Below, piece after piece: positions 3,802 through 22,389 of a stretch of DNA of 27,945 nt. The DNA comes from a virus. Every line of letters starts with the position of its first letter. Position 1 is the stretch's first letter. Where the stretch lies: positions 1 through 27,945 of the IMG/VR virus record IMGVR_UViG_3300048672_000292. One strand, written 5' to 3'. Both the position numbers and the translations under genes were made by a program. The notes beneath the pieces are model-generated. The model searched no databases, had not been told where the DNA came from, and was given only the letters and a program-made list of their open reading frames with translations.

Positions 3802-5472
3802 GTGTCAGAGTTAATTCTGAAAAAAGTTAGGATTGCTCAGCCACAACAAGCGGTTGGGATTGATAGAAGTACACTACTTGGAAAGACTGTTACGCATTGT
3901 TTTAATTTTGCTGAAAATCGGGAATTAGTAACTGGTGCAAAAATTACTAAGGGTGTCGCCGCATCGGTTGGGTGCAGTTCAAAAGCTGGTAAATCGTTAA
4001 AGTCAGATGGGTCTGGTGCTTGTGCATCCGTAGATATTGACTTATCGGGCTACAATAAAATCTCGATTAGTGGCTTCTACAAGCCACCGTCATCCCCTAC
4101 TACAGACGCTAGACTTATTGAATACGGCGTTTCTACTAGCGGAAACAGTGCAATGCACGGGTTCACGATAGACCAGGACTATTGGCAAGCAAAACCATCA
4201 ATAGCAGTTGGTGTATGGGATGGTAACTCAACTGTATATAACTACATTCCCAGACCTTATGCGGCTAATGAATGGTTACACTTCTGCTTCACAATAGATA
4301 GAAGCTCTAAAGTTATAAAGTTTTATATCAACGGTAAAGAGGTATTGAGTACAAACGCGACTAACAATTCTCTAAGTGGTAATTTCTCAAAAGAAACGTT
4401 ATATTTCTTTTCAATAGCGGGTTCTAGTTATTTTGGAAAAGGTGAGTTATCAAATGTAGTTCTTCGCGGCGGTTATATTATGTCAGCCGCAGAAACCTTT
4501 GCTGAATTTAGTAACCCTTGGCAAATCTTTGCCCCCGAAAGAAGGGTTATTAGTTTTGATTCTGTTGTTGTGGGAGGTGGAGTCAATTGTTATATTTCAG
4601 CAAGCCAGATTCAAGCTATTTTAGCAGCAAATTCTCGTTCATTAGCTTCAACTGGTAATTCTAAACAAGTTCAATCTGAAGTGACCGCTTTGTCACGGCT
4701 GCTCAACAGTAATGTGCAAACTAACGAAGTACAAACAGAATCTTTATCATTAAGTAGGAACGTATTAAGTTCTGTTATAGAAAAACAAGTTGAATCCACA
4801 GTATCTGTTCTAAATAGAACAGTCATATCGTCTATATCAAGCAAGCAAACTGAATCTGATTTAGTGTTGTTAAATCGAAGTTTATCGTCATCCGTTAGTA
4901 TTAAACAGGTTGAATCGTCATTAAGTATATTTTCACTCACATTAGACACTGTTTTTAGCTCACAAACAAAACAAGCACAACAACAACAATCTGCGTTTAA
5001 TAGAGGTGTCAATACTCTCGGTTCAAGTAAGCAAACACAGTCAAGTGTGATAGTGAATGAGCGTAGTTTGTCTAGTAGTTTAGTCACAAAGCAGTTACAG
5101 AAATCAACACTTATTACGTCATTAGCTATAAATAGTATTGTTGGTATCAGTGAAGTTCAAAAAGATAACCTCGCTTTATCGACATCGTTAGATGTTCTAG
5201 TTAGTATCCAACAGAAACAAACACAGTCTGGTTTGTCGAGTTATTCGTTAGTAATTACATTGAACACTGTGTCTAAACAATCTCAATCCACTGTAGTTGC
5301 AACAAACAGGTATTTGACTAGCGGTGTAGCGACATCTCAAGTAACTAAATCAAGAGGGATGTTCGGTGAAGTTATTGCATTCTTTGAACCGTCATCATTA
5401 AGACGTTATATTGTCCCGTTTTATAACCGTGAATATAACATTGAATTTCAAAATAGAAGGTATTTAGTATGA
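3802..5472 (+). CDS. LamG-like tail protein with 20-residue tandem repeats
   Basis: This protein has 556 residues and starts at GTG 3802; no in-frame ATG lies close by. Residues about 35-235 look like a concanavalin/LamG-type jelly-roll (ISISGFYKPP, EWLHFCFTIDRSSKVIKFYINGKEV, SNVVLRGGYIMSAAE), a fold often used for carbohydrate binding on fibres. Residues about 286-517 are about 11-12 degenerate repeats with a 20-residue period: S-K-Q-x-[EQ]-S, then L-x-R-x-L-x-S-x-V. Conserved Arg residues fall at 299, 319, 339 and 359; two units are 22 residues long. The C-terminus is aromatic and basic (RRYIVPFYNREYN). The start follows the previous stop directly and the end overlaps the next gene by ATGA. 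A fibre or tail-surface role is inferred; the repeats may form a fibrous stalk. Confidence 0.65.
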   Translation: MSELILKKVRIAQPQQAVGIDRSTLLGKTVTHCFNFAENRELVTGAKITKGVAASVGCSSKAGKSLKSDGSGACASVDIDLSGYNKISISGFYKPPSSPTTDARLIEYGVSTSGNSAMHGFTIDQDYWQAKPSIAVGVWDGNSTVYNYIPRPYAANEWLHFCFTIDRSSKVIKFYINGKEVLSTNATNNSLSGNFSKETLYFFSIAGSSYFGKGELSNVVLRGGYIMSAAETFAEFSNPWQIFAPERRVISFDSVVVGGGVNCYISASQIQAILAANSRSLASTGNSKQVQSEVTALSRLLNSNVQTNEVQTESLSLSRNVLSSVIEKQVESTVSVLNRTVISSISSKQTESDLVLLNRSLSSSVSIKQVESSLSIFSLTLDTVFSSQTKQAQQQQSAFNRGVNTLGSSKQTQSSVIVNERSLSSSLVTKQLQKSTLITSLAINSIVGISEVQKDNLALSTSLDVLVSIQQKQTQSGLSSYSLVITLNTVSKQSQSTVVATNRYLTSGVATSQVTKSRGMFGEVIAFFEPSSLRRYIVPFYNREYNIEFQNRRYLV

Positions 5473-17688: not shown

Positions 17689-19455
17689 TTAAAATGGAAT
17701 GTTATCTTCGTCATAATCGAATGACGGTACTTTTACTTCTTGCAATGTAGGTAAAACCATATTTTCATCGAATTCTACCTTATTTACGTTTAAATACCTT
17801 CCAGAACTTTTAACTAAAATTCGTTTAGGTTTTGGTAATTGTGACACATACGATAATACTTCGTCAACTGTTTTTGGTGATTTACCGATAATTCGTTTCG
17901 ACCACCATGTATATGCTGCTCCACGCTGCCATGTTCCTTGAGCATCTTCAAATCCTACCCATTCAACCGCACTCAAGTAAGGTTCGTTATAGACAACTTT
18001 CAGCATTGGAACACCTGTCTTACGGTTGATATGTTTTGAATAACTAACTGAAGTCACGTCATACCAAGTTGGCTCTACTTCAGGCGGTTTAGGCAACTTC
18101 ATATCACTTCTAGGTTTAGTAGCGATAATATCTAACGAACTTGCAATTTCAGTAATTTTAACCTCGAATGCGAATTCAGTACCGCACTCTGGGCAAAATC
18201 TCACTGAAGGATGACAGATTGTTTCGCATTGGACACAAGTTTTCATAGGTTGCTTACCACCGCCTTTTCCTTTTTTAGAAGGTATTATCGGGTCATTTAA
18301 AAAGCCGTTCCGCGAAGTATTCCCAGCACAGTCTAAAATTAACGCTCCCTTAGGTTTCTCTCCATGTAAAATAGCGTCAATGCGTTCTTCCAATGTATCG
18401 ATAGGCATTCCGTGTTTTGGTGCAATTCTAAGCGACCTGCCGTATTTTTGTTGGTGTAGTGCAGTTGAATTAGTAGGTTGTAAATCCAAAATCAAATCTA
18501 TCGCTTGAAAATCAAAACCCACACACAATACCTTATTGTTTACGCAAGCTCTATATTTACCTGATTTAAAGTCTAAAATGTTTTGGTCACGCTCAGATTC
18601 TGGCATTCGGCTATGCACCATTGTTGAAGGTATTTCAAACTCATCATTCAACATTTGTGTGATATGCTCGGTATGCTCAATTCCTGTAGCAAATACAATC
18701 CAATGCTTTCTATCTGCTCCATAAACTAACGCTTCTTGAATAGCCGACCTCGTGATTTCTTCTTTATCAGACGCATCTTGTAAATCTTTATCTTTAAAGT
18801 CACCGTGCGCCATTTTTATCTTAGATGTGTCAATTTGAGTTACCATTTTTTTAGATATTGGCTCAGAGATATATTTATTTTCAAAGAACCATTTAAATGA
18901 TTTGAAATCAGTCATATCAATAATCATATCGTCAAAAATATGACCATCCATTAAATGACCACCTGATAACCTATACGGGGTAGCAGTCAATCCTATCACG
19001 TTCATATCGCTATTTTTTTCTTTTAAACTTGTGATAAATCTACGATATTGTGTATCCTCTTTGTGCGAAATTGTTTGTGTTTCATCCACAATTAGTAAGT
19101 CAATAGATGTTAATTCACCTACTTTTTTAAACATAGAGCCTATGGTGGCAAACGTGATTTGACCTAATTCCTTACGTTTTAATCCTGCACAATATACTGC
19201 TGTTGGAGCTGTTTTCCATAATCTAAGCAGTCCATCTTCATCTTGTGCTACCAGTTCTTTCGTTGAAGTTAGCACAATAACTCTTGTTCTTGGATTTTGC
19301 ATAAGAATATCTTTTATTATTCCAGCAATAATGAGTGTTTTACCGACACCTGTTATAGCACATAATAATCCGTTTTTACCTGATGAATTAAAATGCCATT
19401 TCACTGATTTGTTTTTAGCTATATTCTGATAATCTCGTAATTTAATTTCAGACAT
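17689..19455 (-). CDS. SF2 DNA helicase with C-terminal zinc finger
   Basis: This 588-residue ATP-driven helicase has motif Q/I region LRDYQ and Walker A TGVGKT (35-40), Walker B/box II DETQ (124-127) where many relatives have DEAH, motif III TATPYR (157-162), and motif VI QKYGRSLR (336-343). A Cys4 zinc finger follows (C407-x2-C410, C421-x2-C424, with C414 near). RAD3/RecQ-like box-II variants occur among phage replicative or recombination helicases. ATG 19455 is read from a ribosome binding site inside the end of the HNH gene, which it overlaps by 8 bases. It is probably used at replication forks together with the phage polymerase; direction and loading are unknown. Confidence 0.9.
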   Translation of the reverse strand: MSEIKLRDYQNIAKNKSVKWHFNSSGKNGLLCAITGVGKTLIIAGIIKDILMQNPRTRVIVLTSTKELVAQDEDGLLRLWKTAPTAVYCAGLKRKELGQITFATIGSMFKKVGELTSIDLLIVDETQTISHKEDTQYRRFITSLKEKNSDMNVIGLTATPYRLSGGHLMDGHIFDDMIIDMTDFKSFKWFFENKYISEPISKKMVTQIDTSKIKMAHGDFKDKDLQDASDKEEITRSAIQEALVYGADRKHWIVFATGIEHTEHITQMLNDEFEIPSTMVHSRMPESERDQNILDFKSGKYRACVNNKVLCVGFDFQAIDLILDLQPTNSTALHQQKYGRSLRIAPKHGMPIDTLEERIDAILHGEKPKGALILDCAGNTSRNGFLNDPIIPSKKGKGGGKQPMKTCVQCETICHPSVRFCPECGTEFAFEVKITEIASSLDIIATKPRSDMKLPKPPEVEPTWYDVTSVSYSKHINRKTGVPMLKVVYNEPYLSAVEWVGFEDAQGTWQRGAAYTWWSKRIIGKSPKTVDEVLSYVSQLPKPKRILVKSSGRYLNVNKVEFDENMVLPTLQEVKVPSFDYDEDNIPF

Positions 19456-20539
19456 TTGAATCTCCTAAATTAGCAAATACACCGTGATATTTAATAGCTG
19501 CTGTATCGTAAGCTAATTTAGCAGATTCAATATCGTTAAACCAACCTAAATACTTAGATTTACCATCGGTCATTATTCTAGCAATATATCTATTAAATCT
19601 TTTGTTAAATGAAACTCCTTTAGGTAAAACTTTATTATAATGACTTTTTCGATTCATTCCATTTGTAACATAATCTGCTTCTCTAAGATTTTCGATTTTG
19701 TTATTTAATTTATTACCATCAATATGGTCGATTAATTTTTTTGGGTCTGTCCCATTAAACATCAACCATACTAACCGATGAATCTTATATTTTTTACCGA
19801 ATAACTCAACTTTCAAATAAGTAGTATCTAGCGCACCTGCTTCTTTACCTGCGTGTTGAGAATTGAATGTACGACATGATTTAGCAGAATAATATCCACC
19901 TTCAACAAATCTTTCTTTCCAGAACAATTTACCGTCATCATATCGCAATAACATATCGACAATATCTTTAGTAATCAGTATATCTTCATATAGTTTCTTT
20001 TTACTTGAGGCTCGATAATTACTTAAATCGGATTCAGATTCTGCTTTTTTTCTAGCAGTAATAGCTTCTTCTATTGAATCGAAATTACCTAAGTGATAAT
20101 TTACATTATTTCTGGTTATATTAGCATACCAATTTGATTGATGTTTATTAAAATACACACCGATTGTTCCAGATGTATTATTAGCTTGCATCAATTTTAT
20201 TTTACCAATATCTTGCATATCACCATCGGCTAAATTTTCAATTTTATTATCACTTATATCTCCATTTAAGTGATAAATAGAATCGGAGGGGTTATTTCCA
20301 GTATTAAATTTCCATATCAATATATGAGCTTTAAAATTAGTTTTATTCAAACCAATATCAATATAACCATTGTGTGAAACACCTGCTTTTTTACCAGATA
20401 ATTTACTGTTACATGAATACATAGCTGCTTCTGTTTTAAAATGCGATAAAGGTCGCTCTTTCCAGAATAACGCTCCGTCAATATATTCAAAACATTCTTG
20501 TAGGTATTCTTGAGTTGGTATTTTTTCTAAATTTGTCAT
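19448..20539 (-). CDS. Free-standing homing endonuclease with two HNH-AP2 units
   Basis: This 363-residue protein is made of two similar halves. Half 1: HNH region about 72-105 (AHILIWKF, YHLNGDISDNKIENL) and AP2-like DNA-binding segment about 122-168 (SGTIGVYFNKHQSNWYA). Half 2: HNH 254-285 (HRLVWLMFNG, DHIDGNKLNNKIENLR) and AP2 about 305-350 (LPKGVSFNKRFNRYIARI). HNH_3 plus AP2 is the usual layout of phage homing nucleases; two in one chain is unusual. Half 2 keeps the H-x-DGN core while half 1 reads HLNGD, so half 1 may bind rather than cut. AGAGG precedes the ATG. No intron is evident around it. Confidence 0.87.
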   Translation of the reverse strand: MTNLEKIPTQEYLQECFEYIDGALFWKERPLSHFKTEAAMYSCNSKLSGKKAGVSHNGYIDIGLNKTNFKAHILIWKFNTGNNPSDSIYHLNGDISDNKIENLADGDMQDIGKIKLMQANNTSGTIGVYFNKHQSNWYANITRNNVNYHLGNFDSIEEAITARKKAESESDLSNYRASSKKKLYEDILITKDIVDMLLRYDDGKLFWKERFVEGGYYSAKSCRTFNSQHAGKEAGALDTTYLKVELFGKKYKIHRLVWLMFNGTDPKKLIDHIDGNKLNNKIENLREADYVTNGMNRKSHYNKVLPKGVSFNKRFNRYIARIMTDGKSKYLGWFNDIESAKLAYDTAAIKYHGVFANLGDSNV

Positions 20540-20653: not shown

Positions 20654-20663
20654 AAGTATTCTA

Positions 20664-20741
20664 CTACACTCTAAACAACTTCTCAACTGCTATATGAGTT
20701 GCTTTCTTACGACTACTAGCAAAGTTAGTTTTTATACTCAT
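20664..20741 (-). CDS. Micro-ORF, 25 residues, last of chain
   Basis: The ATG 20739-20741 overlaps the preceding stop (ATGA) with AAGGAA upstream. It is basic (ASSRKKATHIAVEKLF), lacks a membrane segment and ends in TAG. Support rests on the coupling and site; it is too short to assign a function. Confidence 0.4.
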   Translation of the reverse strand: MSIKTNFASSRKKATHIAVEKLFRV

Positions 20742-20818
20742 AAATACATTTCCTTCCCTTTTAATTTTTTAAACGCATCTTTATGAAACGTAATCGTACT
20801 TTTAGTAAGAGCTATCAT
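20738..20818 (-). CDS. Micro-ORF, 26 residues, basic
   Basis: It begins 9 bases after the preceding stop without a clear Shine-Dalgarno site, so it would depend on coupling or be chance. Its TGA overlaps the next ATG. It is lysine-rich (HKDAFKKLKGKEMYL). Its 3' part supplies the ribosome binding site of the next micro-ORF. Confidence 0.35.
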   Translation of the reverse strand: MIALTKSTITFHKDAFKKLKGKEMYL

Positions 20819-20827
20819 TTCATTAAA

Positions 20828-20926
20828 CTAAATCAAATCAGATTCCCATTGTTTAATGATATTACGATGTTTCTTTTTAAGCAAACCTGCTTTCGTAAGC
20901 ATTTTCTTTTCTACACCATTCGTCAT
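20828..20926 (-). CDS. Micro-ORF, 32 residues, strongly basic
   Basis: ATG 20924-20926 with AAGGGA eight bases upstream; ATGA overlap with the preceding micro-ORF. It is Lys-rich and helical (TKAGLLKKKHRNIIKQWE). Charge suggests RNA or DNA contact; unknown. Confidence 0.45.
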   Translation of the reverse strand: MTNGVEKKMLTKAGLLKKKHRNIIKQWESDLI

Positions 20927-20991
20927 AAGTATGTCCCTTTCTTTGGTGGCGGGTATAACTTTTCTAACGGAGATAACGGACATTCTTTCAT
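20923..20991 (-). CDS. Micro-ORF, 22 residues, proline-rich
   Basis: ATG 20989-20991 lies in an ATGA overlap with GGAG about 10 bases upstream. It contains KLYPPPKKG, a proline-lysine motif. The TGA overlaps the following ATG. Unknown role. Confidence 0.45.
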   Translation of the reverse strand: MKECPLSPLEKLYPPPKKGTYL

Positions 20992-21068
20992 TTTAAATTC
21001 TCCAATTTATCCCATTCATAGGTAATTTTAGCTTTCTCTTTCAAGAATAAATCTAACTCTATACTCAC
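20988..21068 (-). CDS. Micro-ORF, 26 residues, GTG start
   Basis: The GTG 21066-21068 overlaps the nuclease stop (GTGA) and has GAGG eight bases upstream. It is a charged amphipathic helix (IELDLFLKEKAKITYEW). The stop overlaps the next micro-ORF by ATGA. This is the head of the downstream chain. Confidence 0.5.
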   Translation of the reverse strand: MSIELDLFLKEKAKITYEWDKLENLK

Positions 21069-22000
21069 ATTAAATTCCTCATTTCCCATTTACTACAACC
21101 GTGCATCATTTTGTCTTTAGGGATTACACACATATACTTCTTGCAGCACCATCGGCTCGCTTCATTTTCATGTTGGCTAGGATAACTGTGTTGGCATGAG
21201 CGACAGTTAACATCGACAGAATCTGTATTGTTTAAGTGACATAAATACGCCATATCGCACCACTTACATGATACAGAATCAGGTTTGAATTCTCGTTTCG
21301 GAGGATTATCTTGAAATACAATTTCATCGAATCTATCTAAAAAGTGATTAGCTACATAAGTATTATGTTCAATAATCTCAACATATAAATCATCGTCATT
21401 CTTGTTTTTACACATATAAACCGAATACTGCGCGTTATATTTCTCTAAGCCAACTTGTATCTGGGCGTAATGTGAAGGTTTCTCTTTCTGTACGCCCCCT
21501 TTAACTAATTTCTTAAATAACTTATCGGAACTCGTTTTAAACTCCCCTGTCACAATATAATCCTCAAGATAAGGTACGTTCTTTAAGATACCATCTAAAC
21601 TACCTCCAGCGTGACCGTTACTATGTGAAAAGTTATATTGTTTCCCATCTTCTGTTTGTTGAAATACTTCAACACCAATACACTCTAGCATTGAAATAAA
21701 CTCAGCTTCGGCTCGATGACCAGTATTAAATAGTTTCAGAAGTCTTGACTCAAAATAATTCATCTGAATCCAATGGAAGGAATACCAAAGTTTTCGAGAA
21801 CATTCATCACCGATAAGGCTTGCTCCAAGATGCGACCTCGTTGGCTTAACTGGTGACGGAGCATACGCATCATTCATCATCGGAAGCCATTTCTTTAAAC
21901 CAGCTCGATATAACGTACCCTGGTCTGAATAAATCTGCTCATCAATCATTCGTTTTATAGTTGAAGCGATTTCAACTAAGTCTGGTTTATATGTGTTCAT
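21065..22000 (-). CDS. Cas4/RecB-like PD-(D/E)XK exonuclease with Fe-S cysteines
   Basis: This 311-residue nuclease has the core GHRAEAEF (Glu98/100), SLDG (Asp136), EFK (Glu153, Lys155) and QIQVGLEKY (QxxxY-like, about 180-188), as in RecB/Cas4-type exonucleases. A Cys at 67 plus C245-x2-C248-x5-C254 match the four cysteines that hold the 4Fe-4S cluster of Cas4/AddB enzymes. A further Cys-rich tail (C266, C269, C285, C286, C291, C302) may bind a second metal. With the AAA_24 ATPase and DUF669 protein it makes a phage recombination set: end resection, ssDNA binding and annealing. Its ATG overlaps a 38-residue membrane ORF (ATGA). Confidence 0.85.
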   Translation of the reverse strand: MNTYKPDLVEIASTIKRMIDEQIYSDQGTLYRAGLKKWLPMMNDAYAPSPVKPTRSHLGASLIGDECSRKLWYSFHWIQMNYFESRLLKLFNTGHRAEAEFISMLECIGVEVFQQTEDGKQYNFSHSNGHAGGSLDGILKNVPYLEDYIVTGEFKTSSDKLFKKLVKGGVQKEKPSHYAQIQVGLEKYNAQYSVYMCKNKNDDDLYVEIIEHNTYVANHFLDRFDEIVFQDNPPKREFKPDSVSCKWCDMAYLCHLNNTDSVDVNCRSCQHSYPSQHENEASRWCCKKYMCVIPKDKMMHGCSKWEMRNLM

Positions 22001-22113
22001 TTTAAGTATCCCATAGGGTCTGATATTGCAATAAATTCTATAACACTTATTATAATAATCGCTATCACTGAAATAAACATCATTGTTGCTGTAAAATCGT
22101 CTACTTTCTTCAT
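21997..22113 (-). CDS. 38-residue membrane peptide coupled to nuclease
   Basis: ATG 22111-22113 is in an ATGA overlap with the preceding ORF, and its TGA overlaps the nuclease ATG. One strong hydrophobic segment (MMFISVIAIIIISVIEFIAI) follows a charged start (MKKVDDF). The ribosome binding site is weak (AGAG, close), so translation may depend on coupling. Unknown role. Confidence 0.55.
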   Translation of the reverse strand: MKKVDDFTATMMFISVIAIIIISVIEFIAISDPMGYLK

Positions 22114-22196
22114 GACTCTGATGCTTTCAATATATATAGAAAATAAGATATTATTGTTAATATGAAAAATACAGCTAATCTTAGCATATCATCCAT
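22110..22196 (-). CDS. 28-residue membrane peptide
   Basis: ATG 22194-22196 is one base after the preceding TAG, with AGG in the overlap. A single membrane segment (LAVFFILTIISYFLYIL) fills most of it. The TGA overlaps the next ATG. It is one of two adjacent membrane micro-ORFs in the chain. Confidence 0.5.
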   Translation of the reverse strand: MDDMLRLAVFFILTIISYFLYILKASES

Positions 22197-22197
22197 C

Positions 22198-22389
22198 CTA
22201 TAAGCGAGGCTCATATATTTCAGCGACTGTGTATCCTCCGTCATCTGTTTCAATTATCACAGTGTTATTTGGATATTGTGACCTTATATCAAGTAGCACA
22301 GTAATTAGTTCATTTAATTCATCTGGTAATGCACCTAAACTCATACTTTCAACTCGTGTATGACTTTTGTAAAATTCTTTCATATTCAT
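22198..22389 (-). CDS. Hypothetical 63-residue protein
   Basis: ATG 22387-22389 lies in an ATGA overlap with the 59-residue gene upstream; Met3 is an alternative start. A helical N-terminus (ALPDELNELITVLLDI) is followed by a beta-hairpin-like end (NNTVIIETDDGGYTVAEIYE). This small alpha/beta shape is common among phage accessory proteins, but I cannot name the family. Confidence 0.55.
   Translation of the reverse strand: MNMKEFYKSHTRVESMSLGALPDELNELITVLLDIRSQYPNNTVIIETDDGGYTVAEIYEPRL

Follow-up and report, generated by a model that had tools for sequence, protein, structure and literature searches.

A chain of five very short open reading frames (ORFs 1-5) occupies 405 bases (positions 20664-21068, minus strand) of a 28-kb virus record, analysed here over its 27,945 nucleotides and referred to as the window. 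The last of these frames, ORF5, is not a micro-gene by origin: it encodes the final 23 residues of an adenine methyltransferase of the D12 class. The other four look coding as a group, none of them being secure singly, and we lean towards reading ORFs 1-4 as expressed, lineage-specific accessory micro-genes, a view we prefer by a modest degree of confidence.

The chain is located on the minus strand between the gene of a Cas4-like nuclease, a Cas4-domain exonuclease (21065-22000; phrog_1990, E 2e-77), and the gene of an HNH/AP2 endonuclease (19448-20539), which precedes a DNA helicase gene (17689-19455; phrog_16, E 6e-77). ORF1 (20988-21068, 26 codons) begins with a GTG at 21068 behind the Shine-Dalgarno (SD) sequence GAGGA, and its start is overlapped by the end of the Cas4 gene in the arrangement AUGUGA. 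ORF2 (20923-20991, 22 codons, ATG at 20991) has the SD sequence GGAG, and is followed by ORF3 (20828-20926, 32 codons, ATG at 20926), ORF4 (20738-20818, 26 codons, ATG at 20818, no SD sequence) and ORF5 (20664-20741, 25 codons, ATG at 20741). The five frames and their lengths agree with an earlier, sequence-only reading of this DNA, which had left the strand unstated, and so do its four 4-base overlaps and single 9-base gap, the junctions from Cas4 through ORF5 being -4, -4, -4, +9 and -4. That reading had also credited four of the five ORFs with good ribosome binding sites. For ORF1 to ORF5 the calculated SD duplex energies were -6.3, -6.4, -5.0, +0.6 and -7.5 kcal/mol, and the median for genes was -6.05; four of the five starts are thus gene-like, ORF4 being the one without an SD site. 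The same reading had called several products strongly basic, which is correct for ORF3, ORF4 and ORF5 (pI 9.9-11.2) but not for ORF1, which is acidic. Other frames are open across the same bases: a 51-codon ORF (20983-20828) that extends the ORF3 frame upstream, a 33-codon version of ORF1 from an ATG at 21089, and, antisense to the chain, an 80-codon ORF (20783-21025). With such frames present, the earlier remark that standard gene finders would pass over these 400 bases is doubtful. Upstream of Cas4 lie two further micro-ORFs of 34 and 38 codons (21997-22214, minus strand) with one hydrophobic stretch apiece, the second of which overlaps the first by four bases and the Cas4 start by another four. 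Since 4-base overlaps are found here too, the tiling style appears to be the operon's own.

A DNA search with the chain segment gave a sole match, to the 3' end of Obolenskvirus adenine methyltransferase genes. At the protein level, residues 3-25 of ORF5 (IKTNFASSRKKATHIAVEKLFRV) were identical at 21 of 23 positions to the C-terminus of a 235-residue D12-class enzyme (tblastn E 2e-6, 50,697 phage records). The same residues share 83-91% identity, in the same frame, with the C-termini of D12-class (Dam-like, PF02086) methyltransferases from the Obolenskvirus phages AB1, IME-Ap7, Scipio and BUCT628, and from Proteus phage PM75, Acinetobacter phage BS46 and Alcaligenes phage CASP1. Unlike these enzymes, ORF5 has its own start codon and has lost more than 200 N-terminal residues, including all catalytic motifs; neither the SAM-binding nor the DPPY catalytic motif is present in it, it gave no Pfam match, and it cannot methylate. 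As the rest of the methyltransferase was found nowhere in the window, the C-terminal match marks ORF5 as a stump. The methyltransferase motif was likewise found in none of 176 Acinetobacter genomes. The stump is fused to an ATG-AGT start that has a good ribosome site upstream, and ORF5 may still be translated. In comparisons with eight methyltransferase copies, 65-73% of the DNA differences fell at third codon positions, and this excess argues that protein-level selection acted on the ORF5 sequence through much of the period after the split, a selection that may have been confined to the period of the whole enzyme. Phage-like codon usage is absent from ORF5, which is what foreign DNA might show. 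The sequence-only reading had counted five micro-genes; its claim is backed independently by codon usage for ORFs 1-4, as set out below, and falls for ORF5.

Searches with ORFs 1-4 in Pfam, PHROGs, phage records and the 176 Acinetobacter genomes revealed nothing significant. Two pattern scans of viral-contig DNA, which covered ORF2 and ORF3 only and required near-exact core peptides, gave no match to either. Among the sequences searched, none was thus a relative that carries ORFs 1-4. A match of E 0.08 to the joined ORFs was disregarded, as it spans the artificial linkers between them, and the matches of ORF3 to Salmonella phage RecA-like proteins (E 3-5) were put down to chance.

L014 and L022 are the nearest relatives; downstream of Cas4 they have 36 bp, then an int-alpA-type RNA and then the helicase gene, with neither the micro-ORF chain nor the HNH gene. 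In phage HD01 and many viral contigs the Cas4 and helicase genes overlap or almost touch, and in other relatives up to about 2 kb lies between them (helicase start estimated). The content of this slot, whose downstream edge is the helicase gene, was variable across 80 further Cas4 loci; inserts elsewhere consist of tiled small genes, or of single genes which by inspection resemble J-domain proteins, an endonuclease or a cytosine methylase fragment. In L013 and L018 a methyltransferase of another class, N6_N4_Mtase, is found directly upstream of the RNA. As the site is empty or differently filled in relatives, the chain can be regarded as cargo in a variable slot. An apparent slot insert in L020 was rejected, as it is actually within the helicase (approximately 4083-5140) and intein-like by translation. 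The HNH/AP2 gene, for its part, fits exactly between RNA leader and helicase, a position that is empty in L014 and L022 and filled in L013 and L018. Upstream of Cas4 in L014 (4706-5607), a C-5 cytosine DNA methylase is apparently broken into two frames that overlap and match the corresponding halves of the family in Pfam, the gene being decayed or frameshifted.

At the edge of the slot is a putative sigma-70-type promoter, TTGAGA-17-TAGAAT (20658-20686, minus strand), the -35 box of which falls within the final codons of ORF5. It is the best site in 3.4 kb, a region in which the count of promoter-like sites is not above that of shuffles. The corresponding sites of L018 (TTGGAA-17-TATACT) and L014 (TTGCAA-17-TAGACT), weak singly with shuffle p values of 0.05 and 0.13, respectively, have the same spacing and the same distance to the RNA as the site in the window, and in the window and L018 the -35 box is contained in the final codons of a methyltransferase, a different one in each. 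This geometry suggests that the ORF5 DNA is retained as promoter sequence, probably because its 3' end holds the -35 box. No intrinsic terminator was found after the chain.

Directly after ORF5, as a leader of the HNH and helicase genes, there is an int-alpA-like structured RNA (RF02996; 20588-20653, minus strand). The int-alpA RNA is known from integrative elements and its family is named for its integrase-AlpA location; an Acinetobacter copy, L099, is located between integrase and AlpA genes. The window copy matched RF02996 from end to end with 28.9 bits, under the Rfam cut-off of 35.8, while the copy in L014 (6572-6639) scored 37.9 bits and was above it; a further copy is present in L018 (706-772). 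The likeness to int-alpA RNA consists of a shared core and a covarying outer stem. The core reads CUAGCUCGACGGAGCGAAA, with an 18-base core identical in six copies, and 6 of the 12 consensus pairs of the outer stem display two-sided changes between phage and bacterial copies. In contrast to int-alpA RNA, the window RNA precedes phage helicase and HNH genes and not an integrase-AlpA pair, its score is below the cut-off, and its second inner hairpin is reduced, the model positions being deleted or mispaired. Over this RNA the window and L012/L013 share a stretch of 51 identical bases, whereas identity between the HNH proteins encoded downstream is only 67%. Assignment of the RNA to the HNH gene was dropped, as the L014 RNA leads a helicase without an HNH gene. 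Searches for the RNA in plasmids and in annotated phage records gave no match.

The strongest competitor to the micro-gene reading is that the 405 bases are leftovers of gene exchange, a methyltransferase stump together with scraps, the peptides being idle and only the 3' end of ORF5 being kept, as promoter DNA; translation may still occur in such a case and would hold ribosomes on the operon mRNA. We consider this a serious possibility, if a less probable one. In its favour, ORF5 is demonstrably a stump with the -35 box inside its 3' end, close relatives lack the whole segment, and ORFs 1-4 are without homologues in the searches made. However, scraps would not be expected to have four overlaps of exactly 4 bases together with four SD sites, nor gene-like codon usage across some 100 codons, and ORFs 1-4 nowhere resemble the methyltransferase.

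The sequence-only reading had held that such tiling and ribosome sites on one strand are hard to obtain by chance. Dinucleotide shuffles of the chain stretch, with frames of at least 20 codons, were used to count chains after the Cas4 stop. Under a loose rule, chains of at least four ORFs were found in 948 of 720,000 shuffles and chains of at least five in 123, while five ORFs with at least four overlaps of 1 or 4 bases were found in none of the 720,000, in keeping with that earlier judgement. These tests were devised once the chain had been seen, and the last count leaves ample margin for the approximately 40 gene ends in the window. Elsewhere in the window, after any stop and on both strands, there was no chain of at least four ORFs of 20-45 codons. 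Codon usage was scored relative to the region's own base composition. Pooled ORFs 1-4 scored 0.059 per codon; the shuffles gave -0.185 (sd 0.072), with 1 of 3,000 scoring as high. Among pieces of real genes, the pooled score ranks above the 5th and below the 25th percentile. It is thus improbable that ORFs 1-4 are mere chance frames of AT-rich non-coding DNA, with a tiling that is a coincidence picked from the whole window. In favour of such a coincidence are the shortness of the individual frames, the frequency of loose chains of at least four, and the single-ORF codon scores, which are weak and overlap those of off-frame pieces; the number of gene ends examined is nevertheless insufficient to explain the observed overlaps, and codon usage is in agreement with the tiling. 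The codon signal also disfavours the 51-codon extension and the antisense frames. Least probable of all is that fewer, longer genes are present, the 51-codon gene in place of ORF2 and ORF3 and the 33-codon gene in place of ORF1, since, although both frames are open, the extension frame scores -0.56 over ORF2 compared with +0.23 for ORF2 itself, and the SD sites sit at the short starts.

Under the favoured micro-gene reading, the 405 bases would be cargo in a phage operon, placed between its genes for the Cas4-like nuclease and the helicase. Ribosomes ending Cas4 would reach AUGUGA and could proceed through ORFs 1-5 at the start-stop overlaps, ORFs 1-4 being read successively by termination and re-initiation at the ATGA and GTGA overlaps with the help of local SD sites. 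They would end on ORF5, which holds the last 23 codons of the former methyltransferase in frame behind a start codon and a ribosome site, and the putative promoter would start the transcript of the int-alpA-like RNA and the HNH and helicase genes. It could further be envisaged, as a rather doubtful extension, that the whole is an exchangeable module, in which ultra-small (22-32 residues), mostly basic peptides made by coupled translation act on host defence systems or polymerases, and a fixed edge of promoter and int-alpA-like RNA keeps incoming cargo operon-compatible.

Intergenic microproteins of 15-70 codons have been predicted in bacteria (PMC11188072). The chain resembles these catalogued microproteins, and the tiled small early genes of tailed phages, in size, in its single strand and start-stop overlaps, in its SD sites, in the lack of known homologues and in its variable position. 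It differs from the small genes in its five consecutive members of 22-32 codons, which are unusually small, and three of its products are strongly basic whereas the catalogued microproteins are mostly hydrophobic (PMC11188072). Start choice and termination-reinitiation on GUG have been studied at AUGUGA in E. coli (PMC9841429), and the Cas4/ORF1 junction is of this type, with an SD site upstream; it differs from the E. coli case in that a long gene has this AUG as its final sense codon, and it is known here from sequence. The chain is a statistically strong case of phage frames as short as 22-32 codons, a length close to the limit for gene callers. That one seemingly orphan micro-ORF turned out to be the stump of a known enzyme is a caution for catalogues of small ORFs. 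The fixed promoter and RNA edge beside changing methyltransferase cargo suggests how incoming genes may stay compatible with an operon, which can be tested.

The Cas4, helicase and ribonucleotide reductase proteins of the window are approximately 36-44% identical to those of siphophages such as Acinetobacter phage HD01 and Pseudomonas phage PaMx25, and IMG/VR fragments are a nearer match to all three. An IMG/VR search with exact Cas4 peptides revealed no close relatives of Cas4. Translation of the large ribonucleotide reductase subunit of L014 (10905-13658) displayed an intein-like insertion. The small subunit in the window is 95% identical to that of L014, while the Cas4 protein is just 51% identical, and strong mosaicism was seen within 6 kb (window 14713-12845 and 15551-14550, minus strand).
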